A DNA stretch of 44,002 nt. Origin: Candidatus Latescibacterota bacterium (GTDB lineage Bacteria > Latescibacterota > UBA2968 > UBA8231). The position numbers were made by a program, and so were the translations under genes. The notes beneath the pieces are model-generated. The model was not told the DNA's origin. It searched no databases and saw only the letters and a list, made by a program, of their open reading frames with translations. This document shows, piece by piece, positions 8,360 through 14,127 of this stretch. The stretch lies in assembly GCA_009691525.1 (NCBI GenBank), contig SICG01000015.1:1-44002 (forward strand), read 5' to 3'. The stretch's first letter is position 1. Each line of letters opens with the position of its first letter.

Positions 8360-8895
8360 TCACCACTTGCTCAGGTTGCCCATGATGCGGGTGAGATCGC
8401 GCTTGAGTTTCTCGGTTTCGGCTTCCAGTTCGGCAATACGACTCTCGCGCAGCTGCAGCGTGGCTTTAAGCTCATCGAGGGTCTTTTCGAGCTGGGAGAT
8501 CTTTTCGGCCAGCCTGCGCTATGCTCGGTGCCCTCGGAGCGCTGGCGCTGTTTTTCCTCCAACTCTTGCCTCAGGGTGGCCACCCGCACATCCATGTCGC
8601 GTTCTTTGGTGGTGGTCTGCTCGCGCAGGCGCTGGGATTCGCTTTCCAGTTTTTCCTTGAGCTGGGCGCTCTTCTCGTGGAAGGTGGCCTCCTGGGCTTT
8701 GAGTTGGATCTGCAGTTCGCGATTCTCGTGCTGCAATTCCTGGTTCCGGCGTCCGCGTTCCTCGGAGAACTTCTCGGCTTCCTTGCGGTGCGCTCCTTCC
8801 AGGTCGATTAGCTGATGCAGGCGGGCAATTTCGTCGCGCTGGCGCGTGATCTCGGTCCGGAGTCTGGAAGCGGTCAGAAAAGTGAAGATCCCCAT
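8360..8895 (-). CDS. Coiled-coil protein (frameshifted; reconstructed ~178 aa)
   Basis: ORF-track C-terminus after ...SEGTEH is non-coiled nonsense. The alternate frame continues as (R)RLAEKISQLEKTLDELKATLQLRESRIAELEAETEKLKRDLTRIMGNLSKW*, with TGA at 8360-8362. Confidence 0.75.
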
Positions 8896-8925: not shown

Positions 8926-9998
8926 TCAGGACTGACTGGCCCGCTGCCACTCCGAATCGGGCATATCCTGGGCCAGCTTGAGGGCGCCGGTGGCCCCGGC
9001 GAATACCGGATCATCGACCGCCGTGACCCGGCAGGAGCCGAATTCCGTCAGGTTGGAACGCACTTCCTCAGCCAGGCCACGGATCTGGCTGCCGCCGCCG
9101 GCCAGCACGATGTTCTGGCGCAGTTCGTGCTGGAACTCGGAGTCGTAGGTGACGATCAGTCCGCGGGCATGGAGGATCATTTCCGGGAGGATGCTCTCAC
9201 AGGCCTCGCGCAGGCTTTCGGTGACGTCGTAGGCCTTGGGTCGGCCATTGACCTGGAAGTCGATGGTGATGACCTCCTTCTGCGAAGAGACAAAGGCGTA
9301 TTGCTCCTTGATCCGCCTGGCCATCTCCAGGGTGATGGGAGAGTCTTTGATCTTTTCCTGGAGCAGCATATGGAAGCGATTGTCGATATAATTGCCCGCT
9401 TTGGCCAGGGTGCGCTGGTCGTCGTCGGCGGGGATCGTGCCGTGCATACGGCACAGGTCAAGGGTGCCAGCGCCGATGTCGATGATCAGGGCGTTGTTGA
9501 ACAGTTCGAGTCCGTAGGCCACCAAGAAAGGTTCGGAGGCGACGATGGCATGATCGACCAAGCCATCGACCGCATCACTGACCGCCTGCCGGTCCTCGGC
9601 GGTGGAACGGGCGGGGGCGCCGATTACCGCGCGGATCTCCTGCCCGGGTTGGGGTTCGGCCAGTTCGATGATGTAGCTGGTGAGATGGCGCACAGCCTCG
9701 GCTTCACGGCTGCCAGCGTCAGCGCCAGGGGCGGAGGGGCGGTAGCGCAGGACGCCCTGCTCCTGGGCCAGATCATGTCCACGGCCATGCGGTTCTTGAG
9801 GCATTCCTCGCCGATGACGACCTTTTTCTTGAGCAGTTTGTAGGAAATGAGGTCTTTGGGCCACCCCACGACACTGGCGACGGTGCGCTGGATACCGGTG
9901 CTGGTAGCTACCGCGCTCTGCGAGGTGCCCAGGTCAATTCCTATATAGAGGATTTCGCCCGAAGGCATAGCAGATACACTGCTATCTGCGGTGGACAT
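8926..9998 (-). CDS. MamK-like bacterial actin (MreB/MamK superfamily), interrupted by an apparent 1-nt deletion near 9765; reconstructed ~357 aa
   Basis: N-terminal frame: LYIGIDLGTSQSAVATS...SVVGWPKDLISYKLL. Second frame: AEPQPGQEIRAVIGAPAR, IVASEPFLVAYGL, IIDIGAGTLDLC, TLAKAGNYIDNRF, NIVLAGGGSQIRGL. These match MamK signature segments as I know them. Confidence 0.8.
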
Positions 9999-10080
9999 GA
10001 CCAGTGATTCCTCCCCGGACTAACGAGATGTTGCCGATCAATTTGCATGAAAGCTAAGGGCAGGATGAGAGGAATGTCAA

Positions 10081-13000
10081 GTGGTAAATTCCGGACAATA
10101 TCTTGTGGCTAGACCGCAGCGAGTCTCTATTAGTGGAATAGTGCTTTTGCTGTTGGGCTTTGGGGTTAGTGCCCAGGTTGCCGCTGTGGAACCGCGCTTC
10201 GCTCCGCGAGAGGTGTTGGTGCGCTGGGAAGGGCGAAGGGCAAAACTAGCCGCCCGGATGGAGGTGGCAAAACTCAACGAGCGTTATGGACTGGAAAAAG
10301 AGGAAGCCCTGTGGCCTGACGCCGGACGGCTGGCCAAGGCCGCGGCAGCGGGGGCGCTGCTCGGGCGTTGGGAGAAACTGACCTTCGCCGCCTGGGTCGA
10401 CCCCGAGGAGGTGGCTGTGGCCTACGGTCACCTATCTGGGGTGGGGTTGGCCCAGCCCAATTACCTACGGCGCTTCACTGCGGTCCCCGATGATTCCCTG
10501 TACCGGCAGCAATGGAGCCTGAGTGCCATGGGCTGGGATTGGAATACTGAACCCCGGGCTGAGGGGATCGTGGTGGCCATCCTCGATTCCGGGATCGATT
10601 GGCATCACCCGGATCTGGTGGGCCAGATCTGGGAAAACCCTGTCGAGACCCAGGGCAAAGCCGGGGTGGATGACGACGGCAATGGCTATGTGGACGATGT
10701 GCGGGGCTGGGATTTCAGCGACGCCCCGGGTTTGCCTGGCGAAGGAGACTACCTGATTCGGGATGCGGAGCCCAATGACGAATCCGGCCACGGCACCCAC
10801 GTTGCCGGTATTGTGGGCGCTATCCCCAACAATCGCATCGGTATCGCCGGGGTTGCCCCCGGGGTGCGGCTGATGGTGTTGCGCGCTGGTTTCAATATGG
10901 GGGGCGGAGGTTTTCTGGAAGACGACGACGTGGCTGCAGCGCTGGTCTATGCCGCCGACCAGGGGGCCGACGTGGTCAACATGAGTTTTGGCGATCCCAA
11001 TTATTCACCCCTCATCCGCGATGTGGTGCGATATGCGGCCCAGGCCGGTTGCACCCTGGTGGCTGCGGTGGGCAACGAAAACAGCGAGGCTGTTTTCTAC
11101 CCTGCCCGCCTGGGCGAAGTCATCGCCGTGGCCGCGACCGGGCCGGGGAACGGGGTGCTGGCCTTCTCCAATTCCGGCTATAGCCTGGACCTGGCAGCGC
11201 CAGGCCAGGCGGTGCTCAGCCTGCTGCCGGGCGGGGGGTACATCGAGCGATCGGGCACCTCCATGGCTGCGGCCCAGATAAGTGGGTTGGCCGCGCTGGT
11301 CCTTGGGCGACACCCAGAATTTACTCCTCAACAAGTTCGCGGTGTCCTGACCAGCGGCGCACTCGACCTGGGCGCACTTGGCTGGGATGTACATGCCGGG
11401 GCCGGCCTGGGTCAGGTGGGGGCCAGGAAGATGGGCACCCCGCCGACCCTGCTCTTGAGTGCAGAATCAGGTGGAGAAGACAAGGTACTGGCACACCTGG
11501 AAATGACCGGGGAGGGCGCTTACGATCTGAGCTGGGGGAAAGGGGACGAACCAGCGAGCTGGAAGGTCCTGGACCAGGGGCAGGTCCAAGCCAGACGAGT
11601 GGTGGATTGGACCTGGTCTAAAGCGGGGTTGACGGAGGGAGACTACCTGCTGCGCGGCAGGTTTTTCACCCAGGAGGGCACCCTGGAGGAACGGGTGCAG
11701 ATGCAGGTGAACAGACAGGTGGGTCAGGTCCATGATTTTCGGGTGTATCCGGCCCTGGAGGGAGGGGAATGGGTCCAGGTGGCCGAATGGGAGTCCGAGG
11801 GGGGAGGGGTTGACACCCTCATCGTTCGCCGGAGGGGGTCAAGGGAGGATCTCTACCAGATTCCCGAGACCTCCACCCGGCGCCAGCACTGGTTGCGTCT
11901 GCCAGAGGATCTCTTGCCCGGTGACTACGGGGCCCAGATCGGGGCAACGGGTTTGGAGTTGGGTTTTTCCGTAGGATTTGAGACGGTTTCCCGTTGGAGC
12001 ATGGACCAGAAAGGGCTTCTCCCCGAAGGATACCTGCTCCCGGCGCTGAGTGATTTCAACGGCAACGGACTCCCCGAGGTCGTGGCCATGTTGTCCCGGG
12101 GAAACCGCTACAATCCAGTGGCCTTCTACGAGTCCGGCAAGCTGCCTGCAGCACACACCTCCCCGCTGGTCTTCATCCCCTGGGCCCTGGCCGACCTGGA
12201 CGGGGACGGGCGCCAAGAACTGGTGGCCGTGGATGCCCAGCGGGTGCGATTGATCGAGGCCCCTGATCCTCATGCTTATCCTACCCAGTCGATCTGGCAG
12301 CAGGATGATGCCTGGGGCGGGGAAGTGGCCGACCTGGATGGCGACGGCCGGGAGGAATTGCTGGCGCGTTCGGCAAAGGCGCAGTTGTTCCAGGTGATTG
12401 AGGGTCGGGGTGACAACACCTTGGTGGAGACCGGGGTCCTGCCCAACCCCACCGGGGGTAGCAACGAGCTGGGGGAAAGGCAAGTCGCCGCAGATTTGGA
12501 CGGCGACGGCCGAGGCGAATTGCTCAGCGGTGACGAGGACGGTGATCTATTCATCTACGAGGCTATCGGCGACGACACCTACCGACTCACCTGGAAGGAG
12601 GAAGGGCAGCAACTCCCGGCAGATGCCCGGCTGGTGGGAGGTGGGGTGGACCTAGATGGGGACGGCATGAAGGAGTTCGTGGTCGGCCGGCTGTACCAGG
12701 ACCCTTTTGAGGTGCAGCAGACCCGTTGGCTCATCGAGGTGTACCAGGCCAGCGGGGACAATACCTTTGTGCGGGAATGGCAGACCGCGGCGCTGGGGGG
12801 GAAGGCCGGGGGCAACGGCATTGCCCTGGGGGATTGGGATGGGGATGGGTCCATAGAGTTTGCCGTGGCCCTGCCTCCCCACCTGTACCTGTTCAGCGCT
12901 ACCGGCACGGATACCTACGGACCGGTCTGGGAGGCAGAGGCAGGCGACGCGCACCAGCCGGTCTCCGGGGATCTTGATGGAGACGGGCTGAGCGAACTGC

Positions 13001-14127
13001 TCTTCAATACCGGAGGTGGTATCGGCATCTTCTCCCGGCACCCCGGATTGGCGCCCCCAGTCGGCCTGGCTGGCCATGCAGTGGACCAAAGGGCCATCGC
13101 CCTGCGGTGGGACCCCGTTGAAGCGGCCACCAGTTATCGGGTCTACCGCGACGGAGTCTTGCTGGCCGGTCCGGTGTTCGCCCTGCATTTTGAGGACCGC
13201 CAGTTAGAGACTGGTCAGGAGTACGAGTACACCGTCACCGCCCTGACCGGGGCAGGGGAGTCGGCCCGCTCTGCCCCGGTGCGGGTGCGGCCTCAGGAGA
13301 GTCCCCGGGTGTTGGCGGTGGAACGACTGGCGACCCGCCAACTTGGGGTGGAGTTCAGCCAGGTGATGGCGGCCCCCCTGTCCTACCGGTTGCGGCTCGA
13401 TCCGGGGGTAGGTACCCCGACGTCGGTCGTGCTGGACCATTCAGGGCGGCGCCTGCTCCTGGGTTTTGAACTGGCTCTGCCAGATTCGGGGTTCTTCAAG
13501 CTCGTGTTCAAGGGGGTGGAAAATGCCCTGGGAAGTCCGCTGGCATCGGCGGACTTCGCCTTTGAACTGGAGCCGCTGCGGCAGGCGGCCAGGCTGCTGG
13601 CCGCCTGGGCAAGATCGCCCAAGGAAGTAGTAGTGCAGTTCAGCCAACCCATCCCGGACCCTGGGCCGCAGAGTTTCACCTTCGCGGGCGGGGTAACCCA
13701 GGTCACCGGAGCGCGGAGCGCAGGTGGCGAGGTGATGCTGGATCTGGACCCGCCACTGCAGCCGCTGGGCCGGCGCTACGAATTGCAGGTAAGCGCCCTG
13801 GTCGATGAGGAGGGAAACCAGATTGATGGCAAGGTGTTCCTGGACCTGGAGGCTCCCAACCTTTCCCAGGTACGGGTTTTCCCCAATCCCTTTCGCCCGG
13901 TTCGGGGAAAGGCGACCTTTGCATTTCTCCCGGCCCAGGCCCAGGTGTTCATCTTCGACCTAGAGGGTCGTTTGGTGCAGATGCTCAAAGAAGAGGAGGG
14001 AGACGGCGGGGTACTCTGGGACGGGACCAGCGCTGCCGGTCAAGCCCTGCAGTCTGGGGTTTATCTCTTTCGTGTGCTCAGTGGGGTAGACCAGTACCAG
14101 GGGAAGCTGGCGCTGATCCGGGAATAG
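10081..14127 (+). CDS. Secreted S8 subtilisin-like protease with FG-GAP/VCBS repeats, FnIII-like domain and FlgD/T9SS-like C-terminal domain
   Basis: Hydrophobic signal segment; D (VAILDSGID), H (SGHGTHVAG), S (RSGTSMAAAQISG); seven D-x-[DN]-G-[DN]-G motifs; C-terminus FPNPFRPVRG...GVLWDGTSAAGQALQSGVYLFRV. Confidence 0.9.
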   Translation: MVNSGQYLVARPQRVSISGIVLLLLGFGVSAQVAAVEPRFAPREVLVRWEGRRAKLAARMEVAKLNERYGLEKEEALWPDAGRLAKAAAAGALLGRWEKLTFAAWVDPEEVAVAYGHLSGVGLAQPNYLRRFTAVPDDSLYRQQWSLSAMGWDWNTEPRAEGIVVAILDSGIDWHHPDLVGQIWENPVETQGKAGVDDDGNGYVDDVRGWDFSDAPGLPGEGDYLIRDAEPNDESGHGTHVAGIVGAIPNNRIGIAGVAPGVRLMVLRAGFNMGGGGFLEDDDVAAALVYAADQGADVVNMSFGDPNYSPLIRDVVRYAAQAGCTLVAAVGNENSEAVFYPARLGEVIAVAATGPGNGVLAFSNSGYSLDLAAPGQAVLSLLPGGGYIERSGTSMAAAQISGLAALVLGRHPEFTPQQVRGVLTSGALDLGALGWDVHAGAGLGQVGARKMGTPPTLLLSAESGGEDKVLAHLEMTGEGAYDLSWGKGDEPASWKVLDQGQVQARRVVDWTWSKAGLTEGDYLLRGRFFTQEGTLEERVQMQVNRQVGQVHDFRVYPALEGGEWVQVAEWESEGGGVDTLIVRRRGSREDLYQIPETSTRRQHWLRLPEDLLPGDYGAQIGATGLELGFSVGFETVSRWSMDQKGLLPEGYLLPALSDFNGNGLPEVVAMLSRGNRYNPVAFYESGKLPAAHTSPLVFIPWALADLDGDGRQELVAVDAQRVRLIEAPDPHAYPTQSIWQQDDAWGGEVADLDGDGREELLARSAKAQLFQVIEGRGDNTLVETGVLPNPTGGSNELGERQVAADLDGDGRGELLSGDEDGDLFIYEAIGDDTYRLTWKEEGQQLPADARLVGGGVDLDGDGMKEFVVGRLYQDPFEVQQTRWLIEVYQASGDNTFVREWQTAALGGKAGGNGIALGDWDGDGSIEFAVALPPHLYLFSATGTDTYGPVWEAEAGDAHQPVSGDLDGDGLSELLFNTGGGIGIFSRHPGLAPPVGLAGHAVDQRAIALRWDPVEAATSYRVYRDGVLLAGPVFALHFEDRQLETGQEYEYTVTALTGAGESARSAPVRVRPQESPRVLAVERLATRQLGVEFSQVMAAPLSYRLRLDPGVGTPTSVVLDHSGRRLLLGFELALPDSGFFKLVFKGVENALGSPLASADFAFELEPLRQAARLLAAWARSPKEVVVQFSQPIPDPGPQSFTFAGGVTQVTGARSAGGEVMLDLDPPLQPLGRRYELQVSALVDEEGNQIDGKVFLDLEAPNLSQVRVFPNPFRPVRGKATFAFLPAQAQVFIFDLEGRLVQMLKEEEGDGGVLWDGTSAAGQALQSGVYLFRVLSGVDQYQGKLALIRE

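Follow-up and report, generated by a model that had tools for sequence, protein, structure and literature searches.

MamK is the actin whose filament lines up magnetosomes. The window studied here, a stretch of 44,002 nucleotides from a Candidatus Latescibacterota bacterium, contains an actin-like gene split between two reading frames. A preliminary description had assigned it to MamK rather than MreB, FtsA or ParM, saw no magnetosome genes in view, and proposed a MamK-family filament used for another purpose. This locus raises two questions: (i) whether the gene belongs to the MamK family, and how its split arose; and (ii) what a MamK-type filament would do where no magnetosome genes are seen. 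Coordinates of the features are collected in Table 1.

Table 1. Features of the mamK locus in the window and of the corresponding cassettes in sister families f2-f4.
Feature	Position	Strand	Remarks
MamK-family actin gene	8926..9998	-	~357 aa with both frames joined; one frameshift; from ORFs, profile matches and intact orthologs
mamK frames	N-terminal 9998 to ~9768; C-terminal ~9765 to 8926	-	
One-base deletion shifting the mamK frame	9764..9767	-	GGG here, GGGG in L004 and L005
Coiled-coil partner gene	8360..8895	-	178 aa in relatives; start ~30 bp past mamK stop; frameshifted here
One-base deletion in the coiled-coil gene	8515..8517 (about 8516)	-	G here, GG in relatives
mamK/subtilase intergenic region	9999..10080	.	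presumed site of operon start signals, inferred from position only
f2-f4 cassette, L026	8418-11476		
f2-f4 cassette, L029	8520-11649		
f2-f4 cassette, L031	378-3554		linker unclear
f2-f4 cassette, L025	8956-12280		

The two parts of the gene lie on overlapping open reading frames, 9624-9998(-) for the N-terminal and 8926-9864(-) for the C-terminal half. Joining them yields the expected product of about 357 residues with all of the MamK-like segments that had been quoted for it. Both halves have the NCBIfam MamK model, NF040964, as their best family (69-70.8 bits over model positions 1-62 and 331-331.9 bits over positions 72-331), and MreB models reach at most 44.5 bits on them. The best PDB matches are MamK (5ljw/5jyg/5ljv, E 1e-69), followed by BeeR (7e-33) and MreB (5e-7). 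Alignment with the relatives L004 and L005 places the frame break at a single lost G near 9767. Related MAGs of the same genus (L004-L007) carry unbroken orthologs of 357-366 aa, the nearest about 99% identical in protein. A programmed frameshift is ruled out, because these close relatives have one base more and read through as one protein. L004 and the window are 93% identical in DNA across 15 kb, and over this distance the only uncompensated gene-breaking single-base indels that we saw were the two at 8516 and 9767, both in the mamK operon. The window copy may therefore be recently inactivated or mis-sequenced through two base-calling errors. Outside this genome, purifying selection on the operon is strong, with mamK dN/dS values of 0.03-0.10 (window versus L004) and 0.04-0.09 (other species pairs). 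We note that L004 was deposited as Gemmatimonas phototrophica yet is Latescibacterota/Handelsmanbacteria sequence, and is probably a mislabelled MAG. Divergent from mamK, at 10081-14127 (+), lies the gene for a large secreted subtilase, which carries FG-GAP repeats and has a C-terminal tail of the FlgD/Por type.

Comparison with other actins supports the same assignment. Intact orthologs from 10 genomes score 402-422 bits on NF040964 and so pass its cut-off of 400 bits. The Latescibacterota protein is 43% identical to AMB-1 MamK, 32% to BeeR, 23% to MreB and 20% to the FtsA of its own genome. The SEPF and DIGAGT actin ATPase motifs are invariant among six aligned proteins, as are the residues corresponding to E143 and D161 of AMB-1 MamK (E156 and D174 in L004), which we take to be required for ATPase activity. 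An AlphaFold2 model of the actin, built from these six sequences (mean pLDDT 69), has MamK 5ljw as its best structural match (E 1.5e-28). In our trees the Latescibacterota actins form one clade (99/95; 92/95 in a second tree) that is separate from MreB and FtsA. Several other families were considered and ruled out: MreB/Mbl (35.5 bits against a cut-off of 365.75, and apart in the tree), FtsA and PilM (26.1 and 13.8 bits, both far below their cut-offs), BeeR (178.7 bits against a cut-off of 530, for a 312-aa part of the window protein) and Mad28 (the Mad28-like protein of L009 is 19% identical). Profile scores, identities, tree and predicted structure thus all bear out the choice of MamK over MreB, FtsA or ParM, and by sequence the window gene is a MamK-family actin. 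The trees leave ambiguous the order of the Latescibacterota clade, Nitrospirota magnetosome MamK, AMB-1 MamK and the MamK-like actins of other Nitrospirota (AU p 0.23 and 0.33), so descent from a magnetosome MamK is not told apart from descent from an older relative. MreB is encoded separately in the genus relatives tested, and was not found in the window's own genome (4.02 Mb, 84% complete).

At E < 1e-30, a MamK-family gene is present in 14 of 64 phylum genomes. These belong without exception to the class of the window, nine to its own family (f1) and five to the sister families (f2-f4). All five genomes of the window's genus carry one, and each of the 14 also has flagellin genes. No relative is encoded among 72,556 plasmids, and a plasmid origin was rejected.

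We looked for magnetosome genes using three markers, magnetochrome, MamA and MamQ. The model of the magnetochrome domain (PF18509), which is typical of MamE/P/T/X, gave a match in all 14 magnetotactic Nitrospirota controls and in no Latescibacterota genome among the 14 with mamK. The MamQ model gave LemA-type matches only (55 bits in the window's genome, G000), with no convincing MamQ-type gene there; we dropped MamQ as a marker because LemA paralogs match its model everywhere. Among the other window proteins scanned, which cover part of the window's open reading frames, no magnetosome gene was recognised, and ordinary genes flank mamK in the 19.5-20 kb that we read on each of three long contigs (135-285 kb). 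Judged by these searches, Latescibacterota mamK is not encoded with a magnetosome gene cluster. The earlier remark that no magnetosome genes are in view thus stands, and it extends to the window's own 84% complete genome for the three markers, with no magnetochrome, MamA-level or convincing MamQ match, and to 13 relatives for magnetochrome. The proposal of another purpose would follow if the cells are not magnetotactic.

Immediately downstream of mamK we identified a partner gene, which the preliminary description had passed over and which is always adjacent to mamK (8 genomes). This family occurs in 8 of the 64 phylum genomes, exactly those of f1 in which mamK is uncut by a contig end; in the ninth f1 genome, G063, a contig end cuts mamK. 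Besides the broken pair in the window, seven f1 genomes have intact pairs. AlphaFold2 predicts one continuous helix over residues 2-177 (pLDDT 95), and the hydrophobic residues recur with a 3.5-residue periodicity (P 0.005-0.02), as in a coiled coil. The protein lacks homologs of known function, and its gene has a dN/dS of 0.12-0.17. From its strict adjacency, we place the coiled-coil gene with mamK in a predicted two-gene operon.

The sister families have a different cassette, in the order MamA-like TPR, acidic linker, mamK and ParB/Noc-like gene. The TPR protein encoded upstream of mamK scores 146-169 bits on the MamA model NF040959 along model positions 9-199, and 60-85 bits on the next TPR family. 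Genuine MamA of magnetotactic Nitrospirota scores 128-158 bits, so that both groups fall below the NCBIfam cut-off of 200 bits. All other scored TPR proteins in the phylum reach at most 116 bits, with a later model start. The genomes with a MamA-level TPR are precisely the five of f2-f4 that have mamK, and no such match was found in f1 or in the window's own genome among the 40 TPR candidates scored per genome, out of up to 257. Because long TPR proteins confounded a reciprocal HMM test on whole sequences, we judged the relation by best-domain scores and a tree. When the f2-f4 proteins and MamA were placed in a tree together with the 22 top-scoring background TPR segments, they fell on one side of a starred branch (97/91). 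On these sequence comparisons, the f2-f4 TPR groups with true MamA, which is its best match among TPR families and is matched over its full length. It differs from MamA (NF040959; 3vtx) in an N-terminal extension of about 100 aa. Between this gene and mamK, four loci have a small acidic linker gene with the motifs MSIRTLT... PGGIxARF ... ITIELQSH, and downstream of mamK a 205-aa ParB/Noc-like gene is present in the four f2-f4 loci whose contig reaches that far. As a side observation, Rieske-type and ferredoxin-type proteins are encoded beside the cassette in L026 (5154-5957 and 7357-8088) and L029 (11941-12672 and 13908-14909). They share an unusual N-terminal segment, DLSQFDxIxDRVxRAKAKAEA, and lie near a cytochrome bc-type gene set.

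A parallel case is provided by non-magnetotactic Nitrospirota. About 17 genomes of this phylum encode a MamK-like protein (403-441 bits) with no MamA-level match, and magnetochrome was found in one of the 17 at a marginal level (E 0.003). These actins resemble the Latescibacterota protein in this respect and in sequence (about 44-49% identity), and differ in forming a separate clade with an operon of their own. In all 12 loci read (L122-L133, e.g. L126:5411-8906), a cell-wall hydrolase with the Amidase_3 motif precedes the MamK-like gene, and in at least 10 of the 12 a response-regulator gene follows it; the three pairs that we checked by Pfam combine Amidase_3 with REC-SPOR (two) or REC-PilZ (one). 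This gene order suggests a role at the wall or septum, and possibly a septal or wall-linked MamK family. A text search of the literature returned no paper on the Nitrospirota amidase-MamK-response regulator operon.

What, then, would the Latescibacterota filament do? We lean slightly towards a model in which a MamK-type filament driven by ATP positions something other than the magnetosome, and the coiled-coil protein bundles the filament or tethers its cargo. The model is based on family membership, conserved catalytic residues, purifying selection, strict pairing and the finding that no marker magnetosome genes were detected. In flagellated and presumably non-magnetotactic Handelsmanbacteria/Latescibacterota, the actin would polymerise with ATP into a MamK-type filament, which the single-helix coiled-coil protein, about 26 nm long, would bundle or link to cargo. 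In f1, this partner would replace the MamA-like TPR, acidic linker and ParB-like protein of the sister families, and the filament would serve to place or distribute a structure inside the cell. MamA coats magnetosomes, and its relative in the sister families is therefore the strongest hint at a membrane or particle cargo. Retention of this relative beside mamK suggests another purpose for part of the magnetosome skeleton. More tentatively, and somewhat short of an even call, we propose that a MamA-MamK cytoskeletal module exists apart from magnetosomes, as an actin/TPR and later an actin/coiled-coil positioning system, which either preceded magnetosomes and was recruited to them or was re-purposed for another organelle after magnetosome loss.

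The Nitrospirota amidase linkage is the main reason to keep a different reading for the Latescibacterota actin, namely that it acts at the cell envelope or division site, as a septal or wall-remodelling actin, instead of positioning cargo. The SPOR and PilZ domains of the Nitrospirota response regulators point the same way. However, the Latescibacterota mamK loci have no linked wall gene, their partner genes encode coiled-coil, MamA-like, linker or ParB-like proteins, and relatives have a separate MreB; we consider an envelope role fairly unlikely. The ParB/Noc-like gene that follows mamK in four f2-f4 loci would fit a ParM-like use of the filament in segregating a chromosome locus or the nucleoid. 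We find this improbable, given that such a gene is absent beside mamK in f1, that household genes adjoin, and that no plasmid record encodes a relative.

Two further explanations invoke magnetotaxis itself. Magnetotactic Latescibacteria have been reported, with a greigite-type magnetosome cluster known from another Latescibacteria genome (PMC7602337). The operon could be a relic that came from a magnetotactic ancestor or donor and is now decaying without any function, as the frameshifts in both operon genes of the window genome and the patchy distribution (14 of 64 genomes) would allow. Against such decay, dN/dS values of 0.03-0.10 over several species and the pairs that remain intact in seven further f1 genomes speak for long maintenance, and the pairing with partners is lineage-specific, which makes a relic unlikely in our estimation. 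Alternatively, the organism could be magnetotactic, with the rest of its magnetosome cluster in the missing part of an 84% complete genome. The 13 further mamK relatives, several of them 90-97% complete, have no magnetochrome, while all 14 controls do, and mamK has ordinary neighbours on long contigs; we give this explanation very little credence. The reading that we prefer remains a filament that would position a non-magnetosome cargo.

Related actins and adaptors are known from other bacteria. The Latescibacterota protein resembles MamK (NF040964; AMB-1 5ljw, 5jyg) in sequence family, catalytic residues and predicted fold, and differs in having no detected magnetosome genes, a dedicated coiled-coil partner and a clade of its own. 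BeeR, a MamK-related actin of non-magnetotactic Verrucomicrobiota whose N-terminal extension is disordered and whose filament has three strands (8r2n; PMC11929497), is likewise found outside magnetotactic bacteria and is set apart by its low identity and score. Bbp (big bacteria protein) of giant non-magnetotactic bacteria is an actin near MamK, encoded in a small conserved gene cluster with a Kelch-domain protein (PMC10580974). Compared by description only, it shares with our case the closeness to MamK, the additional MreB and the small conserved cluster, and no Kelch gene was noticed among the mamK neighbours. Unnamed MamK homologs outside magnetotactic bacteria have also been described (PMC7449369). 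In magnetotactic D. magneticus, coiled-coil Mad proteins act with MamK and Mad28 (PMC12748827). These proteins and MamJ are coiled-coil or acidic adaptors that work with MamK, as the partners described here would be; the likeness is one of type, and they differ in acting on magnetosomes. Neither a MamA-MamK cassette lacking magnetosome genes nor this coiled-coil pair turned up in the open-licence literature, and both appear to be new.

How the magnetosome skeleton arose could be approached through lineages that have MamA/MamK or MamK/coiled-coil genes and show no biomineralisation genes, as a testable example of a skeleton working without its organelle. MamK has been proposed as the best genomic marker for magnetotactic bacteria (PMC7449369). 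The 14 Latescibacterota and about 17 Nitrospirota genomes that carry MamK-family genes with no clear magnetosome signature indicate that MamK alone is insufficient as a marker of magnetotaxis. Separately, one magnetotactic Nitrospirota assembly of 6.0 Mb, G223 (L136, L137, L074), carries two distinct MamK genes, each on its own contig, and may represent two genomes in one bin.
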